From a virus, in IMG/VR virus record IMGVR_UViG_3300034358_000148, positions 1-47,658 of that record: DNA of 47,658 bases. One strand, 5' to 3'. A program made the position numbers and the translations under genes. This document shows, piece after piece, positions 2,287 to 42,224 of the stretch (position 1 is the first letter of the stretch; each line of letters opens with the position of its first letter). The notes under the pieces are model-generated. The model did no database searches and was not told the origin of the DNA. It was given only the letters and a program-made list of their open reading frames with translations.

Positions 2287-2451
2287 ATGCACCGACTGAT
2301 CACAGGCGACCCTTCCGACCGCGACGAAGCGATTGCGCTGGCCAGCGACGCGGAGTTGGTCGCCGCCTGGCAGATGACGGACGGCGACGCAGGCGATCCC
2401 ATCACCGAGTCGCTCGCGGCCGAGATGAAGCGCCGGGAGCTCGCCTTCTAG
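2287..2451 (+). CDS. small hypothetical protein, 54 aa
   Basis: An acidic helical product with a typical small-phage-protein composition (DAELVAAWQMTDGDAGDPIT). The ATG at 2287 is preferred; an in-frame GTG at 2266 would add 7 residues. It ends 3-4 bases into the convergent SRAP gene, so the two stop regions overlap. No function known. Confidence 0.6.
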   Translation: MHRLITGDPSDRDEAIALASDAELVAAWQMTDGDAGDPITESLAAEMKRRELAF

Positions 2452-3131
2452 GCTGCGACGATGTCGAGCGCCCCGCCGTCCGAGAGCCGCGGCGTCGTCA
2501 CCTGGACGTCCATCGGTCCGTCGTAGGGCCGCACCAGCGCGGCCGCCTCAGCGGCCGTCCCGTCGAGCCATTGCTCCCATTCGTCGGGCTTGAGGATCGC
2601 CGGCATCGCCTTGGGATGGATCGGCGCGACGATCGCGTTGGGCTCGCACGTCGCGAAGGCATAGGCAGGGCCGCGGTCGGTCGGTCGCCAGAAGCCGGCG
2701 AACACGCCGACGGGTTGGTCAGGCAGGCAGAACCAGGCCTGCTTCGGCAGGCCGTCGTCACCCTTGCCGCCCTCCGGATGCGGCTCGGCAAAGTGGGTGA
2801 AGGGCACCAGGCAGCGATTCGCGGCATTGGCGAGCGAGCTGCGCCAGAACGGGCTGGCGAGGTTGCGCGCATTGGTGACGAACTTGACCAGCGGCTGTCC
2901 CTTGGCGCCCTTGACGATAGTCGGAAAGCCCCACTCCATGACCTGGGCGATGAACGGGCGATTGCCCTCGGCCTGCCGGCGCACGACGAGGCCGTAGCGC
3001 GGCGTCTTCTTGCCCGTGGGAAAGATCTGCCCGGGTCGCGGCCGATCGGTCCAATCGGCGTCGATCGCGACGCCATGGAGGTCAAGCCAAGCTTGGACGG
3101 CCTTTTCGCTCTGGTGCTTGCGGTTGCACAT
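2448..3131 (-). CDS. SRAP domain protein (HMCES/YedK family)
   Basis: The product is 227 aa, full length for the family. SRAP proteins covalently cap abasic sites in single-stranded DNA through Cys2, which is present (MCNRK). Other expected positions are visible: the NAR motif (VTNARNLASPFW), the Glu of the usual FYEW region (FTHFAEP), and the active-site His before a MP pair (IHPKAMPAIL). Family knowledge gives DNA-protein crosslink protection of abasic sites. On a mobile element it may protect replicating phage DNA (inference). It converges with the 54-aa gene and diverges from the 3301 cassette. Confidence 0.9.
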   Translation of the reverse strand: MCNRKHQSEKAVQAWLDLHGVAIDADWTDRPRPGQIFPTGKKTPRYGLVVRRQAEGNRPFIAQVMEWGFPTIVKGAKGQPLVKFVTNARNLASPFWRSSLANAANRCLVPFTHFAEPHPEGGKGDDGLPKQAWFCLPDQPVGVFAGFWRPTDRGPAYAFATCEPNAIVAPIHPKAMPAILKPDEWEQWLDGTAAEAAALVRPYDGPMDVQVTTPRLSDGGALDIVAA

Positions 3132-3300
3132 TTGCGGCGGATGCCATGCGGTTTAGGCGAAGTCGACTCAACACGCACCTGGGGGCGATGGCCCAACCGC
3201 GAAGGGCGAGTTAGATCAATCCTGCGCGCCTATCCCCTCCGCATACGGATTTGACGCAAGGGGCAGAGTCCGCTTAGCTTCCCTTCAAAGGGGATGATGG
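3132..3300. promoter_or_regulatory. divergent intergenic region
   Basis: These 169 bases separate the SRAP gene (leftward) from the two-gene cassette (rightward) and must carry both promoters. Immediately before GTG 3301 there is an AAGGGGAT Shine-Dalgarno. I could not assign -35/-10 boxes with confidence and saw no GTTC-N7-GTTC LexA-type site. Confidence 0.4.
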
Positions 3301-4407
3301 GTGCTAGAAGAGATCGCACTGGATGCGTACGCGCTGCCTTACGACCACCAAGTCTATAAGTGCTTTCCCGGTGAAGGTTACAAATTCTATGACGTCGTTC
3401 TCAACGAGAGCGTCATATTCCTAGATGTGCGCGGTCTGGATAATCTCTCTGAAAATCCGGCGACGTGGAGCGACGACGCGCTACTGCACGTCACGACTCT
3501 CGACCACGTGGTGCGTAATCCGACCGGGCCGCGGCGCAAAGGTCAGCGGAGGAGGCGTAAGAGCGGCGTACCTCAACGAAATGCCAATTTTGTAAAGGGG
3601 CTGCTTCTAACTGCGAAGAAGGGTGATCTCATCGTTGTCCCGCCGCCGGGGTGGCGCCGTGAAGTTTTGATCGGCGAGATCGCGGATGAGCCGGGCACGC
3701 CCATCCGCGTGGAGGCCAAGGATGGCGAAGAGACCTTCACCTATTTAGGCCGAAAAGTCCGTTGGCGCACGTCCGTTGAGAAACGATTTATGCGGCAGAC
3801 GCTGCTTGAAAAGCTTCATAATCCGCAGGCATTTTTTCCCGTCGGGATTGACCAGCATGAGGATGTCTACGCCCTCGCCTATGAGAATTATGTTTGGCGG
3901 GACAATTTTGTCGCGACGTTCCGAACGTCGAAAGAGCGCTTCACGTCTGCCGATAATCTGGTGGCCTCCGTTTGGTTCAACGGACTTACGGCCGCTAGAA
4001 ATGCCGCAGAGAATAATACCTTACTTACCACAAGCTCATTCGTCGATGCGGCATTGCTGCCGACTGCCCCGGATACTGAAAACGAGCTGGAATTAAACAT
4101 CAACTCCCCGGGCACCATATTGGTGCGCTCGGCGAGCGCGTTCGCTTTGGCGGCTATGGCCTTGCTCCCGTTGAACGCAACAGAGGCTCAAGCAGTCGCT
4201 GATGGCAATACGAGAATCACCCTGCACGCTGTGGGAGGCGTTGACCCTGGATGCCAACTTCAGGTCGAGGCGGCTGTCGCAGATTACGTACGCTCTCTGG
4301 GTCCCGACCTCCTTCTGGAGGCGTGCGAATTTGGCGACAAAGCCCGCAATGGGGCTACCCTCCGCAGTAGAGTTCAATTGAAAAGAACCCCGAAAGGGCA
4401 TAAATAG
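3301..4407 (+). CDS. unrecognised protein with PUA/Mrr-N-like segment; cassette gene 1
   Basis: The product is 368 aa; GTG start with a good Shine-Dalgarno. Residues about 1-60 look like a folded alpha/beta unit, followed by a basic linker (RRKGQRRRRKSG). The segment around residues 97-180 (KKGDLIVVPPPGWRREVLIG, then KVRWRTSVEKRFM) has the GDLIV...IGEI...V.W rhythm seen in PUA-like N-terminal domains of Mrr-type restriction proteins; this is a faint resemblance, not a family call. Near residue 280 there is a short hydrophobic stretch (ASAFALAAMALLPLN). I see no nuclease or NTPase motif. Base composition is visibly less GC-rich than its neighbours, suggesting separate acquisition. The next gene follows after 5 bases, so this is a two-gene operon. 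A defence or exclusion role is conjecture. Confidence 0.75.
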   Translation: MLEEIALDAYALPYDHQVYKCFPGEGYKFYDVVLNESVIFLDVRGLDNLSENPATWSDDALLHVTTLDHVVRNPTGPRRKGQRRRRKSGVPQRNANFVKGLLLTAKKGDLIVVPPPGWRREVLIGEIADEPGTPIRVEAKDGEETFTYLGRKVRWRTSVEKRFMRQTLLEKLHNPQAFFPVGIDQHEDVYALAYENYVWRDNFVATFRTSKERFTSADNLVASVWFNGLTAARNAAENNTLLTTSSFVDAALLPTAPDTENELELNINSPGTILVRSASAFALAAMALLPLNATEAQAVADGNTRITLHAVGGVDPGCQLQVEAAVADYVRSLGPDLLLEACEFGDKARNGATLRSRVQLKRTPKGHK

Positions 4408-4412
4408 AGGGG

Positions 4413-4901
4413 ATGGCTACGATGGCTCCCCCTGCGCCTGTGAAAGCCCACGCATTCAGTGCGGGGTCCTTCATGCTTGGCACGATTGTGGCGGCGATCA
4501 TTGGCGTGCCCACCGGATTATTTGTGGCAAACCGCGCCAACACCGCGATGGTCGTCCAGCAGCAGACGCTTGGCCAGATCCAAACGTTCGAGACAACTGG
4601 CGGGCAGGTCGATAACGCCGTGCGCTCAGTGAGTGACGCCCTAGCCACCTCCAAAAGACCCGATAAAGGGCTGGAAGCGTTAAGGGATGCGCTCGGCGCT
4701 CACGCGTCAGCAGCATTCGTGCTCCGGGATGAACTCGGCGATGACTACGTCGCGTATATGGCGAAAACACGCGACCTGCGAGGTTACGCTAACAATGCCA
4801 AGACTCCCCGCGATGGCGTTGTCATGTGGCAAGCCGCCATCGATCTAATCACGCTGCGGAAGCACGCGACAGAGCGTATGAATAAAGAGGCGACACGGTG
4901 A
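4413..4901 (+). CDS. single-TM membrane protein; cassette gene 2
   Basis: The product is 162 aa. After about 15 residues there is one transmembrane helix (FMLGTIVAAIIGVPTGLFVA), then a soluble helical C-terminal part with Lys/Arg patches. Spacing of 5 bases and an AGAGGGG Shine-Dalgarno tie it to gene 1; ATG 4422 is an alternative start. The layout resembles small membrane partners of two-gene defence or signalling cassettes, but no family is recognised. GC content is lower than that of the phage genes. Its TGA overlaps a GTG that opens a broken third frame (4898). Confidence 0.7.
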   Translation: MATMAPPAPVKAHAFSAGSFMLGTIVAAIIGVPTGLFVANRANTAMVVQQQTLGQIQTFETTGGQVDNAVRSVSDALATSKRPDKGLEALRDALGAHASAAFVLRDELGDDYVAYMAKTRDLRGYANNAKTPRDGVVMWQAAIDLITLRKHATERMNKEATR

Positions 4902-5035: not shown

Positions 5036-5554
5036 TTACGGGTGATTCGCCTCGTCCACAGGCGCCCCAGCATCGATAAGGCGCTGAGCGATCCAGCGAT
5101 AGGGCAGGTGGCAGCTAGTCCAGGGATGCCGCGGTTCGATCGTTGCGGCCTTCCAGAATTCGGTGAGCAGCCGGTGATCCTTCACGAAGGGTCGCAGCAC
5201 GTGCAGCGCAAGACGAACCTCGAGCGTCCCCACCGGCTGCTCGGCCGACCTGTTGGCGGCCTCGCGCAGGATCTGGAGCGACAGGTTGATAAGCGCATGG
5301 CGATGCGCCCGTCGCCGCGCGCGCTGCTTTCCGAAGGGAATGATCACCAGGTGGATCATCGGCGCCGCGCATCGGTGCGGGCATTTGATGGACCTGGGCG
5401 CCGATCGCCAATCACTGTTGCCGCCATTGTTGTGCACTTCGGCGATCAGCGCATCCAGCTCCCAGACTTCGGCGGCGCGGCAGCTCCGGCATACGACCTG
5501 GACCTGAGCTTCGACCCGGTAGAGATCGTGCAGTGTCTTGGGCGCGCCGACCAT
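5036..5554 (-). CDS. conserved hypothetical with Cys-pair zinc-finger-like N-terminus
   Basis: The product is 172 aa, ATG 5554. A CRSC pair near residue 23 and a second Cys pair (KCPHRCAAPM) about 35 residues later would form a Cys4 zinc site. The rest is basic and helical, with distinctive blocks (FGKQRARRRAHRHALINL and RHPWTSCHLPYRWI). It resembles a sphingomonad conserved hypothetical family seen beside mobile-element genes; function unknown. It is transcribed opposite to both neighbours, so it probably has its own promoter in the 210-base gap upstream. Confidence 0.75.
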   Translation of the reverse strand: MVGAPKTLHDLYRVEAQVQVVCRSCRAAEVWELDALIAEVHNNGGNSDWRSAPRSIKCPHRCAAPMIHLVIIPFGKQRARRRAHRHALINLSLQILREAANRSAEQPVGTLEVRLALHVLRPFVKDHRLLTEFWKAATIEPRHPWTSCHLPYRWIAQRLIDAGAPVDEANHP

Positions 5555-5876: not shown

Positions 5877-6407
5877 ATGGGTGATGTTATGCCAATGCAA
5901 TACGAAGAATTGAAAGCGGCGCGAAGCGCGTTGGGACTGACTCAGGAGGAGCTCGCGCAGGGTCTCGGCATGAGCCGAAAGGCGATCAACGAGATGGAGG
6001 CAGGCAAAGCTGCTATTGAAAAGCGGACCGAACTCGCGGTGCGCCAGCTCTTCAATCAGCGGTCCCGGTTGTACGGGGCGCACAGGGTTGAGCCTCTTTC
6101 TGATGACGTGGCGCTGAAAGACGCCAGCATCTTGTGGGATCGCTACGGCGAGGTCAGCCCCCCAGTGCTAGTCCTCGGGAGAGAAGATGACGATCAACGC
6201 TACCCGTCGAGTTATGGAGCATGCAACTCGGACTGGAACGCAACTGACGACGTTGGTCGGTTGCTGCGGCTCCTGACGCGGTTTGTCGAACTTACCGTCG
6301 CCGACCGTATTCCGGCGCGGAAGGTACACAAGGCTTTTTCGGTAATTCCCGAATATCGATACGCCCTCAGCGAGGGTATGTTCGATCAGGGCATCGCGGA
6401 TCGATGA
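5877..6407 (+). CDS. XRE-family transcriptional regulator
   Basis: The product is 176 aa. Residues about 10-60 form a clear Cro/CI-type helix-turn-helix (LGLTQEELAQGLGMSRKAIN). The C-terminal about 110 residues are unrecognised and contain no S24 peptidase signature. ATG 5877 is used; ATGs at 5889 and 5895 are alternatives. The stop overlaps a 21-codon ORF (6404-6469) that is probably chance. It converges on the last phage late gene. Likely regulates itself or the accessory region through the inverted repeat at 5651-5699 (inference). Confidence 0.85.
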   Translation: MGDVMPMQYEELKAARSALGLTQEELAQGLGMSRKAINEMEAGKAAIEKRTELAVRQLFNQRSRLYGAHRVEPLSDDVALKDASILWDRYGEVSPPVLVLGREDDDQRYPSSYGACNSDWNATDDVGRLLRLLTRFVELTVADRIPARKVHKAFSVIPEYRYALSEGMFDQGIADR

Positions 6408-8877: not shown

Positions 8878-9303
8878 TTATTCGTGCTCGGCGGCTGAAA
8901 CGGCGCGATCGAGAGCGCGGCCGGCCTGCTCGGCTAGCATGCTCAGGTCGAGCGGGAACGCCTGCGAAAGGATCTTCTCGGCCTGGATCAGCGCCGGGTT
9001 GGTAGGATCGACATGGATCAATGCCCCGGCGACGTGGTGGAAGGCGATCCGCAGGGCATTGTTCTGGCGCCCGATCGTCTCGACCTGTTTGCTCAGCCCC
9101 GCAATCTGCTCCTTGAGCTCCTCGCGGATGGCCTTCCACGCCAGGTCCTGCTTCAGGTCCTGTTCGTCCAGCAAGGCCTGCCGCCGGTCGTGCCGCCCCG
9201 TCAGCCAGACGATCACCCAGCGCGCGAAAAGCAGAACGCCGGCAAAGCTTCCGCCGCCGGCGGCCGCGGACAGGGCTGTCTCGAGCACGCGATCCTCAGC
9301 CAT
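8878..9303 (-). CDS. membrane-anchored coiled-coil protein, lysis region
   Basis: The product is 141 aa: an N-terminal hydrophobic segment (SFAGVLLFARWVIVWL), a long charged helical region (EQDLKQDLAWKAIREELKEQ) suggestive of a coiled coil, and an acidic tail. The family is not recognised. Its place just before the endolysin suggests a lysis accessory role such as a second holin or antiholin (inference only). Confidence 0.65.
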   Translation of the reverse strand: MAEDRVLETALSAAAGGGSFAGVLLFARWVIVWLTGRHDRRQALLDEQDLKQDLAWKAIREELKEQIAGLSKQVETIGRQNNALRIAFHHVAGALIHVDPTNPALIQAEKILSQAFPLDLSMLAEQAGRALDRAVSAAEHE

Positions 9304-9362
9304 GGAATGCAATCTGGCGTGTCTCACGCATCGCAGGCAGCAACATCTTGACTATCCCCCTC

Positions 9363-9662
9363 TCACCGTTGGGAAACCCGAGCATCCAATTTTTCGTCGA
9401 TCATCTGCGCGATCAGATCCACGAGCTCGGCGCGCGACAGCTCCGCCAGCCGGCTTTGGCGTTCTCGCTTGGCACGCTTGACCGGGCACGACTTGAGCGT
9501 GCGGCCGTCGAACAGATCGTCTTCGTGCGGCTCTCGATCGAGCTTCCTCGCGGTAAATAGCTCCGCAGGATAACCGTGGCTGGCGGGACGCTTGCCCGGC
9601 GCGACCTTGATATATTGCACCTCGCCGGAATCGCGGTGCGTCACTGCCCAGTCGTCGGCCAT
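9363..9662 (-). CDS. hypothetical protein, 99 aa
   Basis: A soluble charged product with a basic middle (CPVKRAKRERQSRLAELSRA) and an acidic helical end. It sits between the tail-tip protein and the lysis block. No family recognised; small proteins at this position in sphingomonad prophages are generally of unknown function. Confidence 0.65.
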   Translation of the reverse strand: MADDWAVTHRDSGEVQYIKVAPGKRPASHGYPAELFTARKLDREPHEDDLFDGRTLKSCPVKRAKRERQSRLAELSRAELVDLIAQMIDEKLDARVSQR

Positions 9663-9665
9663 CTC

Positions 9666-11816
9666 TTAGCTCCCGACCGCGCTAGCGGCGCTCGCCGCGG
9701 TAACCGTCAGATACCCGCTAGCGCCGCTCGCCATGCGCAGCAGCAGTTGGAATTCGTAGGTCGTGCCGTTGGTCAGTCCGGTCTTGGACATCGAAACCGC
9801 GATGTTGCCGTTCATCCGTATGATCGGCGGTTCGTTGATGCTCTCTGCTTCCTGATCGCCAAGGATCTCGGTGGCGACGTCGGCGAACGACCCGCCCACG
9901 GCGCGCCATTGCCACTTCCCGTACATGTTGCGTGTGCCCAGAACCCCCATCAGCTTGAAGGCCAGCGGCGCCGCCAGCGTCACCGTGCCGGCAGAGCCGG
10001 CGACAACGCTGAGCACGTCGGTCGCGGCCGATCCGTAGCTCGTCGATGACGGGCCGGAAATTGTGCTGTCGCTCGCGCTGGTCCCACCGGTGCCGCCACT
10101 GCCGCCCGTCGGTGCGATGTCCAGGTTGAAGTTGATCACCAGCGTAAATTTGCGGGTGACGCCGCCATACACCGCCTGCACTTCATAGGCCGCGGTCGAA
10201 GCAAGCGCGGTCACGTTGAGAACGCCGGTGGCCGACCCGATCGTCGCGGTTGCCGACCCGCTCTTGAGCGTGGCGGTCCAAGCGGCCGACGTCGTGACAT
10301 CGGTGCCCGAGCCGCGAATGAGCTTGAACGCGACGTTTCGGTCGGTCAGTTCGCCGGTTTTCACCGTCCCGTCGTAATTTCCGGCCACGTCGATCGCGGG
10401 AACGCCCGTGATCAGCATGGTGACGTCTGCCGCAGCCTCGATGCCATCCAACTTGGAAGATTCGGTTGGCGCGATCGCGGCGAATGAGGTCGGGGGCTTC
10501 TGCTGAAACCACCAGGTGTTGCTGGTCCCGCTGCCCGGCGGCGCATTCCCGCTCGCCGGCGTCGCGTTGATGTATAACCAGCTCGATCCGTTAGCGAGAT
10601 CGACGATATTGCCCTCGCGGTAGATCGTCCCGCTCGAATAGAGCCCGAGCGGGAGCAGCGGCGCGGTGAAGGCGATATCGCCGAGCGAATGAACCGCCCA
10701 TGCCCGCTCCGCGCCGATCGACAGCTTCTGCCAGGGCGGCGCGATGTCGATCTGCTGAACTGAAGCCACCGGAGGCAGGCTGCTACCGTCTGCTGCGAGC
10801 GTCACGGTCGCCGTGCCCAGCCCGACCGGAGCGACGAACAACTGCCCCGTCCAGGACACCCCGGCAACAGCGTTTACGCTTGCCGCGATCTGCTGGATCA
10901 GCTCGCGCGCCGTCGTCTGCCCATCGATATAGAGCGACAGATTATACGGCCGCGCCGTGTCCAGCGCGTTGAGCGATGCATCGTCGATCTTGCCCGCGCC
11001 GCCCGAGATCAGTGCCAGGCGCCGGATCAGCTGGCCCGGCTTGCGTGCCCAGCCATCCGGCCCCGCATTGTCGCCCCCGGCGAGGAAACTCACCTGCCCA
11101 GTGGTCGGCGCACCGAACCGCGCCATTCCCACCGCCTTGGCGGTCGCCCATTGGCCGGCGGGGATCGTCGCCGCGACCAGCAGCGCATAACTCGCATAGT
11201 CCGCGATCGGCGCGCCGAACCGCACCAGCCGCTCCAGCGCGGTGTCAATGCTCTGCATCGCGCCATAGGCCGAAAGCTGGAACACGCTGTTGACGCTGTC
11301 GATCAGTTTGCCGGGCACGTAGCGCGGCGCTCCCAAAGCCAGCGGCTTCGCCTGCCCCTTCATCGCCAGCGGACCTTCGGCGCCGGTCGTGCCCGCATAG
11401 GTGCTCAGCAGCGCCTTATCGAGCCAGCGGTCGTCGGCCGCGAACGCGATCGTCGCACTGCCGTTCTCGATCTGCGGCTGCGCTGTCAGCCGCCCGTCGA
11501 AGCGCAGCGTCCAGACGTTGCCCGGATCGCTCGTGTCGCCGGTCCACAGCCGCAACCTGGCATCCGCGAACGAATAGCGGGCGAAGTTCGGCCAGGGTTC
11601 GGTCTGCAGCGTCAGCGACGAAGACGGCGCCGTGATCGCGCCGCCGAACGATCCGTCGAACAGATCGTATCGCAACACCGGCAGCGTCTTGATCGCCGGC
11701 CACCAGGTGCCGCCGCTGGCGTGGCAGACGTCGGGCTCGTCATGGCTCGCCGCGTACAGGCTCACCGCCGCCGCGGCGACGGGATCCCACGCATCGATCT
11801 GGACCAGCACCTGCAT
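9666..11816 (-). CDS. phage tail tip / receptor-interaction protein
   Basis: The product is 716 aa. The N-terminal about 400 residues resemble a baseplate-hub-like fold region (LRYDLFDGSFGGAITAPSSS; RLALISGGAGKIDDASLNAL). The rest is Ser/Thr/Gly-rich with beta-repeat texture, a Gly/Ser linker (GGSGGTGGTSASDSTISGPS) and a likely carbohydrate- or receptor-binding end. It is the last large tail gene before the lysis block, the usual place of the host-specificity protein. Exact family not named. The start overlaps the preceding stop by one base. Confidence 0.8.
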   Translation of the reverse strand: MQVLVQIDAWDPVAAAAVSLYAASHDEPDVCHASGGTWWPAIKTLPVLRYDLFDGSFGGAITAPSSSLTLQTEPWPNFARYSFADARLRLWTGDTSDPGNVWTLRFDGRLTAQPQIENGSATIAFAADDRWLDKALLSTYAGTTGAEGPLAMKGQAKPLALGAPRYVPGKLIDSVNSVFQLSAYGAMQSIDTALERLVRFGAPIADYASYALLVAATIPAGQWATAKAVGMARFGAPTTGQVSFLAGGDNAGPDGWARKPGQLIRRLALISGGAGKIDDASLNALDTARPYNLSLYIDGQTTARELIQQIAASVNAVAGVSWTGQLFVAPVGLGTATVTLAADGSSLPPVASVQQIDIAPPWQKLSIGAERAWAVHSLGDIAFTAPLLPLGLYSSGTIYREGNIVDLANGSSWLYINATPASGNAPPGSGTSNTWWFQQKPPTSFAAIAPTESSKLDGIEAAADVTMLITGVPAIDVAGNYDGTVKTGELTDRNVAFKLIRGSGTDVTTSAAWTATLKSGSATATIGSATGVLNVTALASTAAYEVQAVYGGVTRKFTLVINFNLDIAPTGGSGGTGGTSASDSTISGPSSTSYGSAATDVLSVVAGSAGTVTLAAPLAFKLMGVLGTRNMYGKWQWRAVGGSFADVATEILGDQEAESINEPPIIRMNGNIAVSMSKTGLTNGTTYEFQLLLRMASGASGYLTVTAASAASAVGS

Positions 11817-12625
11817 CAGAAGATGCTCACCAGATTGACCTTGGTTTCCCAGCCCGCGGCGTTGCGTTGGATGTGGCCGAGATCCCCGACCAGCGGCCCG
11901 AAATAGGCGCGGTTCTGGCGCTGCGCGTCGGCGGCGGGGTCGGTCAGCAGCGCGATCATCTCGGTATTGCCGATCTGCTCGAGCAGTGGCTTGGTCGTCG
12001 CCTCCACTTCATCCTTGCGCACGTTCGAGAAGATGAGCCCCACCGTGCGCAGCTTCTTGGCGCGGCGGCGGAGCAGCACGCCGCGCGCCGAGAAGTCGAG
12101 CGATCCCAGGTCCCTGACCCCGAAGGCGCCGCCATATCCGAAATTGCGATCGAGCTGGATGCGCTTGCCGATCACGATGCGCGCGAGCCGGACGGATTTT
12201 GCCGCGGCGCCGGCGTAGAGAATGATCTGGAAATATCTGGCCGTGACCGGCGCGCTCGCCGACCATAAAGCCACACCCTTGCCAGAAACCGGCATCACCG
12301 CCCCGGCATAGGGCGTGCCGCTCGCATCGCTGATCGCGCCGCCGCCGGTGAAATAGCCCTGCGCCGCGGTGGCATATTGGACGGTCATCGTGGCGCCGGT
12401 CGGCAGCAACTCCACGCCGAATATGAGCATCGTGTCGATAAGGGTATCAGCGCCAAGGTCGAATCGGACGACCGCTGCATCGACACCGCCAAAGTCGCAC
12501 GCGCCTTGCCAGACGACGCCAGCATAGTCGTTGAACAGATTGGGCCCGTCGCCCGCCTGTAGGGTGCCGAAGGTCGTCACCGCTCCGACGTTCGGCAGCG
12601 GCTTGAGCATCCACGCATTTGCCAT
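11816..12625 (-). CDS. minor tail / baseplate-like protein
   Basis: The product is 269 aa, soluble, with alternating beta-type segments and a basic patch (GVLLRRRAKKLRTVGLIFSN). It lies between the short tail gene 12629-12991 and the tail-tip protein, in an order typical of siphovirus distal-tail components. No specific family is recognised; a distal tail or hub-adaptor role is inferred from position. Confidence 0.7.
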   Translation of the reverse strand: MANAWMLKPLPNVGAVTTFGTLQAGDGPNLFNDYAGVVWQGACDFGGVDAAVVRFDLGADTLIDTMLIFGVELLPTGATMTVQYATAAQGYFTGGGAISDASGTPYAGAVMPVSGKGVALWSASAPVTARYFQIILYAGAAAKSVRLARIVIGKRIQLDRNFGYGGAFGVRDLGSLDFSARGVLLRRRAKKLRTVGLIFSNVRKDEVEATTKPLLEQIGNTEMIALLTDPAADAQRQNRAYFGPLVGDLGHIQRNAAGWETKVNLVSIF

Positions 12626-12628
12626 CGG

Positions 12629-12991
12629 TCACCCAAACAGTTCGTAGCTGGTGGTCTCGGCCTCGAGGTCAATCTCGATCCGGGCGGCGAGAAAGGTCGC
12701 GCTGACGGCTTGCTCGCCATCGATCAGCTGCACTTGAGGCAGGCCCGTCGATATCGCCGGCCACAGCAGATCGTCCACGCCGACGGTGAAGCGGCGCCGC
12801 TCGATCCCGATCAACGCGCCGCGTGCGTCGATCACCGTCTGCGCATCGCCGCTGGCGTCGAAGAAGCCCGTCGCCGGCGTCACCGAACCATCGCGCGCCG
12901 AAGGATAGCGGCTCCCAATCCCGGCATCCGACCAGGTCGCGATTGCGGCGTCTCGCGACGCCGCCGCGATATCGGCTGCGGTCGCGGGCAT
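12629..12991 (-). CDS. tail protein, 120 aa
   Basis: Starts at an ATG that overlaps the tape-measure stop by one base. The product is a small mixed alpha/beta protein (VDDLLWPAISTGLPQVQLID). Position immediately after the tape measure suggests a distal-tail or tail-completion component; family not recognised. Confidence 0.7.
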   Translation of the reverse strand: MPATAADIAAASRDAAIATWSDAGIGSRYPSARDGSVTPATGFFDASGDAQTVIDARGALIGIERRRFTVGVDDLLWPAISTGLPQVQLIDGEQAVSATFLAARIEIDLEAETTSYELFG

Positions 12992-15900
12992 CAGGCCGCG
13001 GCCGTGAAGTTGCGGCCGTCACCGATGAAGCCGCCGCCGCCGCCGCCGCCGCCACTTTGGATATTGGCGAGGATCTGCGCGATGGTCCCGAGCTGCTCCG
13101 AAACCTGCGAGAGCAATTCGTTGCCGGTCGCGGTGTTCGCCGCCGTCGCTTCGGCGAACGGGTCCGAAACCGTGCGGATCGGCTTGGCATTGTCGATGGC
13201 GCTGATCGCCTTGCCGGTCGCGGCCTGAATCATATCCATCGACGCGAAATATTGCTCGGTCGATCCGTAAAGCTGGCGCTCAATTTCGAGGAAGCTTTGC
13301 GCCGCCTCGGTATACTTACCCTGGTCGATCGTCTCGCCCGCCGCGATCTTGGCGAAGTACGGGTCCAGCGCCGTCCGTGCCATCGCTTCTTGGTCGCGCA
13401 GCGAATAGGGCGATCCCGATCCGAAGGCGAGCGCGGCGAGGAAATCCTTGAGGTCGGCCGACGCTTCCCGCGCGCTCGTCTTGGTCTGCTCCAGCTCGAT
13501 CTTATAGAGCTTCTGCGCATCCGCCATCTGCTCGGCCGATGCACCGCCTTCCTTCAGCGCGTCGATCGCCTTTTTCCACTTGGCGTTGAGCTGATCGACC
13601 GCATAGCCCACCGGGTCGATATACGCCGCCAGCCGCTTCGGAATGTCCTCGATCATCAGCGCCTTGGCGAGGGCCTGGCTCATGTCCTGCCCGGATTTCA
13701 GGATATTCTGGCTGGCCTGGCTGATGCCCAGCAGCGCGCCGTCGCGGACCGCGTCGGCAATCGCGAACTCGATTGCCTTCTGCTGATCGGTCCCGAAATC
13801 GGTGAACCCCTTGTTCGCGCCATTGGTGGCGCCGCCCGAGGGATTGACCCGGATCGTGTCCTTATAGACCCCGATCGAGACGTTGAACGCGCCCAGCTCG
13901 GCGTGGAGTTGATCCGCGAGCGACTTGAGCCCCTCCTGCACGTTCCCGGCGAGACCCGACGCCTGCTTGTTCAAATCCGAATTGTTGCCGCGCAGGTCGA
14001 TCGCGCCGGCGCCGGTGCCGGTGATCGCGGCGCTGCCCGTCTTGGGCTTCGGGCCGATGCCGAATAGCTTGGCCAGCAGCGTGGCGCCGGGCGCGAGCAT
14101 GAACGCCGTCTTGTTCACGCCGAACATCTTGGCCAGCGGCTCGGATGCCGCCATCCACGCCGCCGCCGCCGCGGCATAGGGCGTGGCGGCGGACGCCGAG
14201 CCCAATAGCCCACCCAGTCCCCCCGCACCGGCCCCTGCGCCGCCGAGCTTGCTGCCAAGCCCGAGCAGCTTCGGAGCGGCGGCGGTCGTGCTGCCGCTGT
14301 TGCCGAGCAGCCCGAGCGCGCTGAGCACGCCCCCGCCGCCACGCCCGCCGGTGCCCGGGCCCGTGCCGAACCCCGCGAGCAGATCGCCGAGCGACGTCTG
14401 CTGGCCGGAAAGCAGCGCCAGCGTCCAGCGCGCCGCCACCATCGCGATCGCGTCGAGCATCTCGTCCTTGAAATCCTCGACGATGCTTTTTCCGCCGGAG
14501 CGGAACGCATCGCGGTAGAAGCCAGCCAGGTCGCGGATATTGTCCTGCTCGCGGTCGCGGCGATCGTTCTCCAATTCCTCCATCGCGCGGTGCGCTTCGC
14601 CGAGCTGCTGCTTGGCGTCGCCTTCGAACTTCGCCCGCTCGCGCTCGATCTCGAGGCCCTGGTCCTTCGCGGCGTTCAGCTGGTGCTCGATCCGGATCAG
14701 GTCCGTCCCGATCAGCAGGCGATCGGCTTCCGTTTTCGCCAGGCCGATCACCGTGTCGCGCTGGGCCAGCAACGCTGCGTTCGCCTGCTCAAGGGCAGCA
14801 TTCTGCGCGTCGGTGCGCGATGCCTGATCGCCCGCGGCCACCAGCAGCTCGGCATAGGCCGCACTCTGCTGGCGAAACAGCTTGAGCTGCTCGCTGAGGC
14901 CTTCGGTCACCTTCGCCTGCGCGTCGCGTTCGCCTTCGGTGAGCTCCGCCATCCGGTCGGCGCTCTCGCGGCGCAGCTTGGAGATCTCTTCCTCGGTGCC
15001 GGCCTGCTCGTCGAGACCGCGCAGCCGCAGCCCCAAATAGCGCATGCCTTCGACCTCCACCGAAAGCTGATCCTGCGACGCCTTCAGGATCCGATCGCGC
15101 GCGTCGGCCTCTTCCTTGGCGGATTTCGCGCCCTTTTCCGACGTGGCCAGCGCATCGGTGGGAAACTGGCCCTTCCCCGGATCGACGGGCTTCCCCGATC
15201 GCCGGACCTCATAGTGCAGGTGTGGCCCCTGGCTGTTGCCCGCGCCCTCCGCACCCTTGGCGCCGCCGGAAAGCCCGATGCGCTCGCCTTGGCCGACCGC
15301 GTCGCCTTTCTTCACCAGCAACTGGCTTAGATGCGCATACCGCGTAACCGTCCCGCGCCCGTGATCGATGTACACGACATTGCCGTAGCCGGGCACCATA
15401 CCCGATTCTATCACCACGCCGCCCGCCGCTGCGCTGACCGGCGTGCCAACCGGCACGGCGATATCGATCCCGCCATGGCGGTGACCGCGCCGCTGCTCAC
15501 CGTACTGCCCAGTGCGGGCGCCAGCGACGGGGGAAACGAAGCTGGTCAGGTCGCCATCGGGGCCAGTGCGGCTCTCGCGGCGATCTTTCTGCTGCCGATC
15601 GCGGATCGCCTTCACTTCGGCTTCGTTGCGCCGAAGCTCTACCAGGCGGCGTCGCTCATACTCTTGAGCGGTGATACCATTCGGCGCGTCACGCTGCGCC
15701 CGCAGAGCCTCCAGCGAATTGGTCAAGCGCCACGCGGCAGCGGCCTCCTCGTCCATTGCCATCGTCACCTTGCGGTTCGATACCGGCATGGAGGCCCCAC
15801 GGACCGCAGCTTCGGCCTTTGCCAATGCCTCGTTGGCGCGCGCAAGACGCGTGTCTAGGTCGCTTATCACCCGGTCCGTTGCTGCAACAGTCTGACCGGG

Positions 15901-17301
15901 GATCGAGAACTCGCCACCAACGGTAGGTTGCATGGCTGCCTGCCGAGCAGCCTGCGCCTTTTCCAGCAAGGCGACGGTCTCCTTACGAATCTCGACAATT
16001 CGCTTACGGCGATTTTCCGCATCGTCGAGCGCTTGCCGCTCCATCTCCTGTTGCGACTTCGCCGCACCTTCCAGTGCCTCGCGCTGATCGTTAATTGCCG
16101 CGGTGACACCCTCCAACGACTGCCCGAAGCGGCGCTGCGCTTCATTGGTGAGATCAGCCTGATGAGCTTGCTTCTCAAGTTCTCCGGAGGCCTTTTCAAC
16201 TTCATCGCCGACCGCTTCATACTTGCTCGCCAGCAAACCAAGGATGGTAACCGCGCCGATCGCCGCAGCGCCCCAGGGCCCGAGCAGAAATGCGACGAAG
16301 CGCTGCTTTGCGAGTGCCAGCCCCGTGGTGGCCACCGTCGCGCCCTCGGTGGCGACAGCATTCGCACCGGTCGCGACGGTGTTGGTTTCCAGCCCCACGG
16401 TGGCCTGAACGGTGGCGCCTGTCTGGACCTCGCGTGAGGCCGAGTTGGCGCCCGTCGCCGCGGAATTGCCCTCGGTCGCCGCGCTGCCGGCTCCCAGCGC
16501 ACCTGCGAGTGCTTCGGTGGAGGCCTTGGCTTGTTCCACCGTGCCGGAAACTGTTTCCAGCGCCCCGCCCATATCTTCGACCGCGCTCGCGGCACCGCTC
16601 GCACCGCCCCCGCCGCCACCGCCGCCCTGTCCGCCACCGGACATCAATGCGAACGCCTGAACGACCTGGCTCGCCTGCTGGCCAAAGATGACCATCGGGC
16701 TCACCCCCGACGCAAAGCTCTGCGCGACGTCGCTGATCTGGAACGACAATTGCTGGTATCCGGCCCGCAACTGCCCCGACGAGACGACACCATTGTCGTG
16801 CACCTGGTTCAGAACCCGATTGCCTTGGATAACCAGCTGCGTCGAACTCGCGGTCTGATTGAGTTCCGCCTGCAGATGCTCCAGCGCCGCGGCTTCTTGT
16901 CCCGCGCCGCGAGCAACATGCTCTGCCTCAAGCGCCGCGGCCTTTGCCGCCTGCACATAGAGCCGCGTGTTCTCCGAGACATCGCCCGTTTTCAGCGCGG
17001 CGCGTTCCGCTGCGGCCGATATCTCGCGAAGCGCTTGAGCCTGCGCCTGCGCCGCGGCGGCGGCTTCGCGCGCACCGGTTACATTCAGGTCGATCGACCC
17101 GCCTGCGTTACGCGGCATCGCAAGCCCCTTCTGTGCCAGCTCCTGAATATTGTTGAAGCTGGTTTCGAACGCGGCTTTGGTCCGGCCTGCAGTGTCACGT
17201 GCCGTAGCCTCCATCGATCCGAAAAGGCGCGCATTTTCGGATGAAAACTGACTGCCATTTAGCATGAGGCGGGCGACAATATCGGTCGTCGAACTCCCCA
17301 T
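12991..17301 (-). CDS. tail tape measure protein with M23 peptidase domain
   Basis: The product is 1436 aa, by far the longest gene, as expected for a ruler of tail length. The N-terminal part (GYQQLSFQISDVAQSFASGV) matches lambda-type tail-tape-measure proteins. A hydrophobic segment lies near residues 330-360 (FLLGPWGAAAIGAVTILGLL). At about residues 585-705 there is an M23 metallopeptidase domain with HxxxD (HGGIDIAV) and HLHYEV zinc ligands, which would cut peptidoglycan cross-links during DNA entry. Long coiled-coil stretches follow, and Gly runs occur near the N-terminal third and the extreme C-terminus. ATG 17301 has a GGAG Shine-Dalgarno. Confidence 0.93.
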   Translation of the reverse strand: MGSSTTDIVARLMLNGSQFSSENARLFGSMEATARDTAGRTKAAFETSFNNIQELAQKGLAMPRNAGGSIDLNVTGAREAAAAAQAQAQALREISAAAERAALKTGDVSENTRLYVQAAKAAALEAEHVARGAGQEAAALEHLQAELNQTASSTQLVIQGNRVLNQVHDNGVVSSGQLRAGYQQLSFQISDVAQSFASGVSPMVIFGQQASQVVQAFALMSGGGQGGGGGGGGASGAASAVEDMGGALETVSGTVEQAKASTEALAGALGAGSAATEGNSAATGANSASREVQTGATVQATVGLETNTVATGANAVATEGATVATTGLALAKQRFVAFLLGPWGAAAIGAVTILGLLASKYEAVGDEVEKASGELEKQAHQADLTNEAQRRFGQSLEGVTAAINDQREALEGAAKSQQEMERQALDDAENRRKRIVEIRKETVALLEKAQAARQAAMQPTVGGEFSIPGQTVAATDRVISDLDTRLARANEALAKAEAAVRGASMPVSNRKVTMAMDEEAAAAWRLTNSLEALRAQRDAPNGITAQEYERRRLVELRRNEAEVKAIRDRQQKDRRESRTGPDGDLTSFVSPVAGARTGQYGEQRRGHRHGGIDIAVPVGTPVSAAAGGVVIESGMVPGYGNVVYIDHGRGTVTRYAHLSQLLVKKGDAVGQGERIGLSGGAKGAEGAGNSQGPHLHYEVRRSGKPVDPGKGQFPTDALATSEKGAKSAKEEADARDRILKASQDQLSVEVEGMRYLGLRLRGLDEQAGTEEEISKLRRESADRMAELTEGERDAQAKVTEGLSEQLKLFRQQSAAYAELLVAAGDQASRTDAQNAALEQANAALLAQRDTVIGLAKTEADRLLIGTDLIRIEHQLNAAKDQGLEIERERAKFEGDAKQQLGEAHRAMEELENDRRDREQDNIRDLAGFYRDAFRSGGKSIVEDFKDEMLDAIAMVAARWTLALLSGQQTSLGDLLAGFGTGPGTGGRGGGGVLSALGLLGNSGSTTAAAPKLLGLGSKLGGAGAGAGGLGGLLGSASAATPYAAAAAAWMAASEPLAKMFGVNKTAFMLAPGATLLAKLFGIGPKPKTGSAAITGTGAGAIDLRGNNSDLNKQASGLAGNVQEGLKSLADQLHAELGAFNVSIGVYKDTIRVNPSGGATNGANKGFTDFGTDQQKAIEFAIADAVRDGALLGISQASQNILKSGQDMSQALAKALMIEDIPKRLAAYIDPVGYAVDQLNAKWKKAIDALKEGGASAEQMADAQKLYKIELEQTKTSAREASADLKDFLAALAFGSGSPYSLRDQEAMARTALDPYFAKIAAGETIDQGKYTEAAQSFLEIERQLYGSTEQYFASMDMIQAATGKAISAIDNAKPIRTVSDPFAEATAANTATGNELLSQVSEQLGTIAQILANIQSGGGGGGGGFIGDGRNFTAAA

Positions 17302-39700: not shown

Positions 39701-39978
39701 TGCGCCGCCACAGCAGCCACACCATCGAATGCCGCCGCCGCGGCTGCGCCCGCCGCATGCACCCGAGGGACACCTTCTGCGCGCGCTGCTGGGCCGCGGT
39801 CCCCGGCTGGCTGAAGGCCCGCCTCGCCCAGGCCCGCAAAGCCGCCGACTCGGCGCTGATCACCGGCCTGATGATCAAGGCCTCCACCTTCGCCGCCGAC
39901 GCCGCCGCCCCCGCGCCGCGCGTCACCGCCACTGAAGTCTACGCCCGCAATGCCGCCTTGCTCGGAGAAACCGACTGA
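39700..39978 (+). CDS. Cys-rich hypothetical protein, 92 aa
   Basis: ATG 39700. Four cysteines in the first 32 residues (IECRRRGCARRM; FCARCW) form a likely zinc site, followed by an Ala-rich helical tail. Coupled to genes on both sides. Possibly a small nucleic-acid-binding protein; not a named family. Confidence 0.65.
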   Translation: MRRHSSHTIECRRRGCARRMHPRDTFCARCWAAVPGWLKARLAQARKAADSALITGLMIKASTFAADAAAPAPRVTATEVYARNAALLGETD

Positions 39979-42224
39979 TGTTCCTCGATCCCGCCCAGCC
40001 CCGCGCCGAGACCCGCAGCCCCTTCGTCGTGGATAGCTTCGCCGGCGGCGGCGGTGCGTCCACCGGCATCGAGGCCGCAATCGGCCGCGCGATCGACGTC
40101 GCGATCAACCATGATCCCGAAGCCATCGCCATGCATCTGGCCAATCATCCGGCCACCCGGCACTTCTGCCAGTCGATCATGGCAATCGATCCGCTCGAGG
40201 CGACCGGCGGCGCGCCCGTCGCGCTCGCCTGGTTTTCGCCCGATTGCAAGCATCACAGCAAGGCCAAGGGCGGCAAGCCGCGCGACAAGAATATCCGCGA
40301 TCTCGCCGGCATCGTGCCGCACTGGGGCGAGCGCCTGCGCAAGGCCACGCCGAACGGCATCGGCGCGCCCCAGGTGATCATGCTCGAGAATGTGGAGGAA
40401 TTCCGCCAATGGGGACCGCTTGACGCCGAAGGCATGCCGATCAAGGAACGCCGCGGCGAGGAATTCGACCTGTGGCTGCGCAGGCTCGAGCGCCTCGGCT
40501 ACAAGGTCGAGCACCGCGAGCTGCGCGCCTGCGATTACGGCGCTCCCACCAGCCGCAAGCGGCTCTACCTGATCGCCCGGCGTGACGGGCGCCGCATCGT
40601 CTGGCCGACCCAGACGCACGGCAAGCCGGGCTCCGCCGAAGTCCTCTCCGGCCAGCGCCTGCCATGGCGCACCGCCGCCGAATGCATCGACTGGAGCATC
40701 CCGTGCCCGTCGATCTTCGATCGCAAGCGCGAGCTGAAGGAAGCCACCCACCGCCGCATCGCCCACGGCGTGATGCGCTACGTCGTCAACGCGGCCTCGC
40801 CCTTCATCGTCGGAACGGCCTTCACCAACACCCGCGCCGCGCGCGTCTTCGATCCACAGGATCCGCTGCGCACGTCCACCGCCCAGCGCGAATACGGCCT
40901 GGTCGATGCCGGCATCGTTCCGCTGACCCATCACGGCGCCCCAAGCCGGGTCTATCCGGGCGGCGAGCCCTTCGTCACCATCACCGGCGCGCACCGCGGC
41001 GAACTGGCCAGCATCGGCGCCAGCGTGGTGCCGATCACCCACACCAGCAACGGCCCCACCGCCCACAGCATCGGCGATCCGCTCCGCACGATCACCACGG
41101 CGAAGGGCGGCGAGCTGGCGGCGGTCAGCGTCACGCTCGCGCCCTTCGGCACCAAGTTCCGCAACGGCGCGATCGGCTTCGATCTGCGCGAGGCCATGCC
41201 CACGGTCACCGCCAACGGCAATCCCGCGCGCCCCGCCGGCGCCCAGCCGCTCGCCTTCGCCCAGGCGGTGCTGGTGCCAGTCGTCGTCGGCTGCGGCGGA
41301 CGGCGCGGACAGAGCGGCCCGGTCGATGTGCGCGGGCCTTACCCCACCATAACTGCGAAGGCCGATGCCTGCCTAGTCGCCGCGACGATGGTCCAGATGG
41401 GCTATGGCGAGCGCGAAGGGCAATCCCCCCGGTCGCTGAATATCACCGCGCCCCTCGGCACGATCGTCGCCGGAGGCCTCAAGCACGGCCTCGTCACCGC
41501 GCACCTGGAGAAGTTCAGCGAGAACAGCAGGGGCAGGCCAGCCACCGATCCGCTCGACGCGGTAATGGCAGGCGCGCCACGCCACGCCGCAGTCGCCACC
41601 TTTCTCAGCCATTTCTACACGAGCAACACCAACGGCGGGCAGGGCGATCCGCATGCGCCCGCCAAGACCGTCACCGCGGAAGGCCAGCACCACGCCGTCG
41701 TTGCCGCGCACATGGAGCAGGCGAACACCGGCCTGATCGGCCACGACATGCGCGAGAGCGTATCGACGATCGTTGGCAAGGGCTGCACCCAACGGCTCGT
41801 CGAAACCACGATGATCGATGCCGGAGTGCTGCCGCCCGATCTGATGGCAAGCGCGGTCAGGGTCGCCGCCTTCCTGATCAAATATTACGGCGCGGCCCAG
41901 CACGGCCAGGCGCTCGATCAGCCGCTGCACGCGATCACCAGCCTCGCGCGCTTTGCCGTCGTCACCGTCACGATCGACGCGGTGACCTACGTCATCGTCG
42001 ATATCGGCATGCGCATGCTCAGCCCGCGCGAGCTGGCCAACGCCCAGGGTTTCCCGGCGCGCTACATCCTCGATCCGATCGGCCCCAACGGCAAGCCGCT
42101 CAGCAAGAGCGCGCAGATCCGCATGATCGGCAATAGCGTCTGCCCCGCCATGTCCGAAGCCCTCGTCCGCGCCAACCTGCCCGAACTCTGCACCGGCGAA
42201 ATGGCGGAGGCCCAAGCGGCGTGA
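39978..42224 (+). CDS. C5-cytosine DNA methyltransferase with long repeat-bearing TRD
   Basis: The product is 748 aa. Motif I is FAGGGGASTG (residues 21-30). The catalytic Cys90 lies in SPDCKHHS, a variant of the usual PPCQ. Motif VI is ENVEEF near residue 135, and motif VIII-like TSRKRLYLIA follows. Motifs IX-X are at the C-terminus (LANAQGFPARYI, IGNSVCPAMSEAL). Between them lies an unusually long target-recognition region with repeated DPLxTIT-like units. GGAG precedes ATG 39978. It probably methylates phage or host DNA to evade restriction. Confidence 0.93.
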   Translation: MFLDPAQPRAETRSPFVVDSFAGGGGASTGIEAAIGRAIDVAINHDPEAIAMHLANHPATRHFCQSIMAIDPLEATGGAPVALAWFSPDCKHHSKAKGGKPRDKNIRDLAGIVPHWGERLRKATPNGIGAPQVIMLENVEEFRQWGPLDAEGMPIKERRGEEFDLWLRRLERLGYKVEHRELRACDYGAPTSRKRLYLIARRDGRRIVWPTQTHGKPGSAEVLSGQRLPWRTAAECIDWSIPCPSIFDRKRELKEATHRRIAHGVMRYVVNAASPFIVGTAFTNTRAARVFDPQDPLRTSTAQREYGLVDAGIVPLTHHGAPSRVYPGGEPFVTITGAHRGELASIGASVVPITHTSNGPTAHSIGDPLRTITTAKGGELAAVSVTLAPFGTKFRNGAIGFDLREAMPTVTANGNPARPAGAQPLAFAQAVLVPVVVGCGGRRGQSGPVDVRGPYPTITAKADACLVAATMVQMGYGEREGQSPRSLNITAPLGTIVAGGLKHGLVTAHLEKFSENSRGRPATDPLDAVMAGAPRHAAVATFLSHFYTSNTNGGQGDPHAPAKTVTAEGQHHAVVAAHMEQANTGLIGHDMRESVSTIVGKGCTQRLVETTMIDAGVLPPDLMASAVRVAAFLIKYYGAAQHGQALDQPLHAITSLARFAVVTVTIDAVTYVIVDIGMRMLSPRELANAQGFPARYILDPIGPNGKPLSKSAQIRMIGNSVCPAMSEALVRANLPELCTGEMAEAQAA

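Follow-up and report, generated by a model that had tools for sequence, protein, structure and literature searches.

The window, that is, the whole 47,658-nucleotide stretch that was analysed, is a viral record (IMGVR_UViG_3300034358_000148). Judged by gene content, we assign its source to a temperate Sphingomonadaceae phage or prophage of the Sphingomonas type, because its portal protein shares 60–74% identity with portals of Sphingomonas and Sphingobium genomes and because it encodes an S24-type repressor. Two adjacent genes, referred to as gene 1 and gene 2, occupy positions 3301–4901, with the following features in and around them.

2448–3131, minus strand: SRAP gene (Pfam E = 8e-18), left neighbour, not counted in the module; the L021 pair has an SRAP gene beside it too
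3287–3293, plus strand: Shine-Dalgarno-like AAAGGGG, its GGGG 7 bases ahead of the GTG start of gene 1
3301–4407, plus strand: gene 1, 368 aa, open reading frame with a PUA-superfamily domain, an SPG motif, a hydrophobic segment and an exported-looking tail; 18 further full-length homologues
3352–3840, plus strand: PUA-superfamily (EVE/YTH/Mrr-N-like) domain, about residues 18–180 of gene 1, from the AF2 model, fold matches and an Mrr N-terminal profile match
4096–4113, plus strand: NINSPG motif, residues 266–271 of gene 1, with S269 and G271 invariant in 19 sequences
4117–4179, plus strand: hydrophobic segment, residues 273–293 of gene 1, with a lipobox-like or AxA-like end in relatives
4180–4404, plus strand: C-terminal tail of gene 1, predicted from sequence comparison to be exported, with Cys318 and Cys342 (C-X23-C)
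4413–4901, plus strand: gene 2, 162 aa, open reading frame with an N-terminal transmembrane segment (residues 22–38) and a modelled helical bundle (about residues 40–161); a homologue lies downstream of 19 of 19 full-length gene 1 copies
5036–5554, minus strand: 172-aa open reading frame, possible zinc ribbon (CxxC...CxxxC), right of the pair, no library matches
5877–6407, right side of the pair: HTH protein (library match)

As the first-pass annotation had described, two open reading frames separated by 5 bases on the same strand form a cassette of lower GC content than its neighbours, with 56.9% GC in 3301–4901 versus 65.9% in the whole window, a value as low as in only 0.3% of equal-length (1601-base) windows. 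The SRAP flank it named was recovered by the Pfam match, while its zinc-finger flank is presumably the 172-aa frame, which carries the cysteine pattern and which no library recognises. Beyond the HTH protein, lysis and tail genes follow to the right. No promoter or terminator stood out on inspection at the pair, and a search for a direct-repeat attachment site of the window prophage at its tRNA-Leu found none. A gene 1 match was absent from eight records or genomes containing relatives of the window phage, which makes the pair optional cargo. In one related phage, a 1375-aa frame that appeared RHS-like by eye lies just past the tail genes (L010:15723–19850), suggesting that cargo varies on this side of the window phage. 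A tRNA-Ala predicted at 12448–12520 on the minus strand falls inside a tail-region frame (11816–12625) and is either spurious or gene-overlapping.

Searches of Pfam, PHROGs, NCBIfam and PADLOC gave no match above cut-off for either gene, and PADLOC-DB 2.0.0, which holds systems described up to 2023, gave no family at E ≤ 5 for both proteins, in keeping with the earlier statement that neither the families nor a known system were recognised. Matches from PDB sequence searches were dismissed as noise, and those of gene 2 proteins to PRD1_DD, thylo_ssl2009 and RSS_P20 as sub-threshold. The family was seeded by tblastn in plasmids, where two distant gene 1 relatives, each with a small protein directly behind it whose N-terminus is hydrophobic, provided a profile that was then widened. 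This profile matched 7 of 398 Sphingomonadales genomes, 2 of 385 Alphaproteobacteria genomes, 1 of 398 Pseudomonadota genomes (already among the matches of the earlier samples) and 13 of 398 Sphingomonadaceae genomes, full-length in 8 of the last (9 loci) and weakly, over the PUA-like segment only, in 5. The distribution is patchy, with the pair in ~2% of the sampled Sphingomonadaceae. The weak matches (L037–L041) were left out of the family count because the four with fetched context proved to be two Mrr endonucleases, an McrB-like AAA protein and an unassigned 164-aa protein. Four viral contigs were added to the gene 1 set; the gene on L056 is the same as that of the chromosomal locus L050. 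With the window copy, the set comprises 19 distinct full-length sequences of gene 1; the other 18, from Alphaproteobacteria, plasmids and viral contigs, are 17–38% identical to that copy. Scans of viral and genome contigs with single proteins and A1/A3 returned nothing, the family being too divergent to be caught by patterns of short peptides, and subfamily alignments succeeded as queries where these had failed. The L022–L024 subfamily had no match in the viral contigs, and tblastn against annotated phages gave no matches.

Structure prediction of both proteins, which had been proposed as a check, returned a PUA-like fold for gene 1 and a helical bundle for gene 2. The gene 1 AF2 model, computed from a five-sequence input of window and viral-contig copies only rather than from the 19-sequence alignment, had a mean pLDDT of 79 and a pTM of 0.75, with a mixed-strand N-terminal domain at pLDDT mostly 85–94. 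Its top PDB fold match was the EVE-type protein 1zce, at a modest E = 0.007 (probability 0.97), followed by many YTH domains. The gene 1 family profile also matched two Mrr_cat endonucleases, in their N-terminal domain, as well as part of an McrB-like AAA protein; hhalign paired the family with the Mrr N-terminal domain at a probability of 96%, within a comparison set picked by the same profile. The domain thus combines the PUA-like pseudo-barrel fold with sequence homology to the PUA superfamily, Pfam staying below cut-off, and the model and profiles identify the gene 1 N-terminus as a PUA-superfamily domain and predicted nucleic-acid reader, bearing out its initial description as a PUA/Mrr-N-like segment. 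Residues G24, G108, P114, R151, S269 and G271 are invariant across the 19 sequences. The initial view that gene 1 lacks a nuclease is also supported: Pfam, NCBIfam and PADLOC contained no nuclease family matching either protein, no conserved catalytic or nuclease signature was seen in the 19 gene 1 sequences, and a PD-(D/E)XK or HNH domain, as expected of Mrr and other type IV restriction endonucleases, was recognised in neither protein. Foldseek matched gene 1 over nearly its full length to A0A8S5NVT7, an uncharacterised protein of Myoviridae sp. ctEBR14 (E = 2e-15, probability 1.00). At L044:9257–9838, only the PUA-like domain of gene 1 is left (193 aa); gene 2 is absent, and a gene for an 823-aa repeat-rich protein follows directly.

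Downstream of the reader, a hydrophobic segment follows a NINSPG-type motif at the same place in 19 of 19 sequences and exceeds all other hydrophobic windows of its own protein; in the window copy the stretch 273–289 has a KD value of 1.96. Given this conserved placement, gene 1 is unlikely to be the soluble protein first supposed. The segment ends in a lipobox-like L[ST][SAG]C in L048–L051 and L057, and in an AxA-like sequence followed by Q in L003, L045–L047 and L058, the latter pattern resembling the sites at which signal peptidase I cuts many secreted proteins of Alphaproteobacteria. The window copy has neither a lipobox nor a positive charge just before the segment. The remaining tail is 63–86 residues long across homologues, with a cysteine pair 24 residues apart in 11 of the 19; in another four the spacing is 20 or 26. 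The simplest reading of this anatomy is an internal signal or anchor with an exported tail, and tail cleavage, lipidation and a disulfide may each occur in the family.

Gene 2 has, as first annotated, a single transmembrane segment, located at its N-terminus. The model of the protein is a helical bundle with pLDDT above 90 over most of residues 50–150, and its fold matches are generic, for which reason p130Cas, FAT and GPCR fusions were dismissed as relatives. Among 17 proteins, the 20 residues before the transmembrane segment carry a higher net charge than those after it in 12 cases, the same charge in 3 and a lower one in 2, a tendency that mildly favours an external bundle. If the gene 1 tail lies on that side as well, it could interact with the gene 2 bundle there.

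A gene 2 homologue lies directly downstream of full-length gene 1 at all 19 loci, across junctions that range from a 50-base gap to a 35-base overlap. The idea of a two-gene system was originally to be abandoned if homologues were always apart or belonged to a known metabolic family; they adjoin at every full-length gene 1 copy and belong to no such family. An independent gene 2 profile search of the Sphingomonadaceae sample recovered the same 9 loci and one solitary copy, L085, while weaker gene 2 matches (E above ~1e-6), mostly inside long unrelated frames, were dismissed. Protein distances of gene 1 and gene 2 were correlated at a Mantel r of 0.93 over 17 pairs, with 0 of 5000 permutations as high, and both genes have one common history. 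For computable pairs dN/dS was 0.03–0.07, with synonymous sites saturated in two gene 2 comparisons, showing purifying selection on the pair. The presence of both genes in order at 19 loci is conservation far beyond chance.

In a few places one gene is broken or missing and its partner intact: gene 1 in L025 and L085, and gene 2 in L020 and L022, two of the 19 loci, where it is frameshifted next to an intact gene 1, possibly through assembly error. At L025:9480–10400, in a pair closely related to that of the window, gene 1 has lost a large part of its middle and gene 2 is intact; an IS1595-like transposase gene follows. The solitary gene 2 homologue at L085:7141–7668 (E = 9e-14) has neither gene 1 nor a recognisable remnant upstream. 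A conserved ORF of ~50 aa (...FIAExExExGDxxAFEATLxSMAGKSKEA...) directly follows gene 2 in L050, L051 and L056; it could be a third component of the module or cargo of no relation to it.

Two small, tightly linked genes carried by plasmids and prophages would also suit a toxin-antitoxin or addiction module, in which a membrane-active toxin is restrained by its partner gene and the pair is kept for stabilising these replicons. Solitary gene 2 copies (L085, L025) agree with this, as does the fact that full-length gene 1 was never seen without a downstream gene 2 homologue. However, the frameshifted gene 2 copies beside intact gene 1, if not assembly errors, speak against it, a diverse yet conserved reader domain would be unusual for a toxin, and no toxin-antitoxin family in Pfam, PHROGs, NCBIfam or PADLOC matched. 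We regard addiction as improbable.

The pair is mobile and occurs in several unrelated prophage backbones, in a tRNA-integrated element and on plasmids. In the window it adjoins the SRAP gene near the lysis genes, and in L021 the order is endolysin, holin, pair, SRAP and then an OLD/AriA-like ATPase. In L058 P2-type gpO, gpP and gpQ (the portal gene) come first and the pair directly after gpQ; the pair lies in L057 beside gpD and tail (late) genes of another P2-like prophage, in L059 in a prophage with its own RNA polymerase and integrase, and in L056/L050 near an integrase and a D12 methylase. L024 carries it at the tRNA end of a 7.3-kb tRNA-Ser-integrated element (8888–16212) bounded by 17-bp direct repeats of the tRNA end, which, with genes for an integrase, an AlpA-type regulator and an AAA ATPase, resembles a phage satellite, and in L022 and L051 it lies ~120–190 bases downstream of a tRNA. 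Plasmid copies reside on replicons of 6.3 kb (L002) and 45 kb (L003). In L023 and L048 the pair is an apparent lone insert among housekeeping genes; the L023 copy (9567–11259) sits on the same strand between genes resembling, by eye, tsf and pyrH, an unusually clean insertion. In the gene tree, viral and chromosomal copies are intermixed, and the pair behaves as a set of genes that mobile elements carry optionally in their accessory sites. The phage accessory region first assigned to it describes prophage cargo that is also found on plasmids and directly after hsdRMS. The latter arrangement occurs in L045 and L046, where hsdR, hsdM and hsdS of a type I restriction-modification system are followed directly by the pair in the same direction and which are counted as one association because they are close relatives; in L043, RmrA lies ~3.3 kb upstream, and the OLD-like gene of L021 is likewise only a few kb from the pair. 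Such proximities are noted as individual loci.

These neighbourhoods raise the alternative of a phage helper that guards the phage genome against restriction by the host, or that adjusts lysis or the host envelope during infection. Lysis genes adjoin the pair in the window and L021, late genes do so in L057, and the preceding hsdRMS genes in L045 and L046 would fit a restriction modulator as well. Nevertheless, the pair also occurs on plasmids, in chromosomal loci with no phage genes nearby and in the small tRNA-integrated element, and is missing from the eight records or genomes with relatives of the window phage, which renders a helper role unlikely. A phage-unrelated role, in which a cytoplasmic PUA protein and a periplasmic bundle relay stress or regulate membrane-near translation, would draw on the exported-looking tail and helical bundle, the weak similarity of the bundle to periplasmic sensor domains (4k0d, 9m08) among other matches and the RNA binding of many PUA-superfamily domains (PMC12707154), but appears doubtful given that patchy presence and mobile carriage are unusual for a housekeeping regulator and that the bundle matches are generic.

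Taking these observations together, we favour, at a probability of roughly 0.5, a mobile module of two genes for defence or superinfection exclusion, which a temperate Sphingomonadaceae phage carries as cargo. The evidence consists of the linkage, co-inheritance and purifying selection of the genes, the PUA-like domain, the hydrophobic segments and the cysteine pair, the mobility, the patchy distribution and the position after restriction-modification genes. Carriage in prophages and on plasmids, and a place beside a known anti-virus system, make the pair a good candidate for a new phage-defence module. Against this stand the confinement of the restriction-modification link to one lineage, the lone copies in L023 and L048, the modest PDB match (E = 0.007) and, in the window copy, the missing lipobox and missing positive charge ahead of the hydrophobic segment. 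The soluble sensor with a membrane partner that the first-pass annotation had likened to defence layouts survives in its membrane partner and in its accessory and defence contexts; its sensor carries a membrane or export segment and an exported-looking tail.

For a defence or exclusion module, the anatomy of gene 1 suggests how a reader might be coupled to the membrane. The PUA-superfamily reader would stay in the cytoplasm, the internal signal or anchor after the SPG motif would thread gene 1 through the inner membrane, and the tail, often disulfide-capable, would be exposed in the periplasm, where the N-terminally anchored gene 2 probably shows its bundle on the same outer side and could bind the tail. 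At the membrane or close to it, the reader may recognise phage nucleic acid that is foreign or differs in its modification, upon which the assembly of both proteins would block phage genome entry or disrupt the membrane. Topology, ligand, contact between the two proteins and any action against phages are our inferences, and the ligand, trigger and outcome of this scheme are conjecture. A more specific version, which we put forward tentatively, is a trans-envelope alarm: the cytoplasmic reader might relay phage recognition to the periplasmic tail and the gene 2 bundle and thereby close the membrane to further phage DNA, the C-terminus being exported via an internal segment cleavable by signal peptidase and lipobox-bearing in one clade. 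The window phage encodes a C5 cytosine methylase (39978–42224, plus strand, Pfam E = 2e-20), and methylase genes also lie close to other copies of the pair; together these hint that self could be marked by the state of modification.

Compared with known systems, the pair occupies the same kind of temperate-phage accessory slot as the exclusion cargo old and tin of P2, reminiscent of E. coli P2 phages, in which the gpA–gpQ interval contains old, tin and many defence systems (PMC9122126), and the L058 copy adjoins a P2-type gpQ; its proteins are unrelated to old or tin, and the likeness is one of position. SNIPE (PMC13190303), a nuclease bound to the membrane that cleaves phage DNA as it is injected, shares the idea of a membrane-tethered defence meeting incoming phage DNA; this likeness is at the level of concept, as SNIPE is a nuclease and no nuclease domain is recognised in either protein of the pair. 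A0A8S5NVT7 resembles gene 1 structurally over nearly its full length, yet has 16% identity and no known function. In bacterial immunity, PUA readers have been described as fused to nucleases or McrB-type motors, as in EVE-HNH, YTH-McrB and Mrr (PMC7897488, PMC11090510, PMC12707154). Gene 1 has a PUA-like reader homologous, by profile and fold, to those of Mrr (type IV) and EVE/YTH-fused McrB systems; by contrast, the pair has no PD-(D/E)XK, HNH or GTPase domain, and has instead a membrane or export segment, a tail and an obligate membrane partner. A PUA reader in which an export segment and a constant membrane partner replace the nuclease was not found in the libraries or open papers searched, with catalogues to 2023. 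As read from sequence, the pair appears to be an undescribed two-gene family in which the cell envelope is linked to a type of domain that recognises nucleic acid, often in modified form, and gene 1 would be a specific example of a cytoplasmic sensor whose export signal is apparently internal and possibly cleavable. At 1.6 kb, the pair is a small candidate system open to direct tests, from a host group for which the open literature searched holds few defence systems, and, if the reading is true, a modification-type reader wired to the envelope rather than to a nuclease would represent a new design of bacterial immunity.
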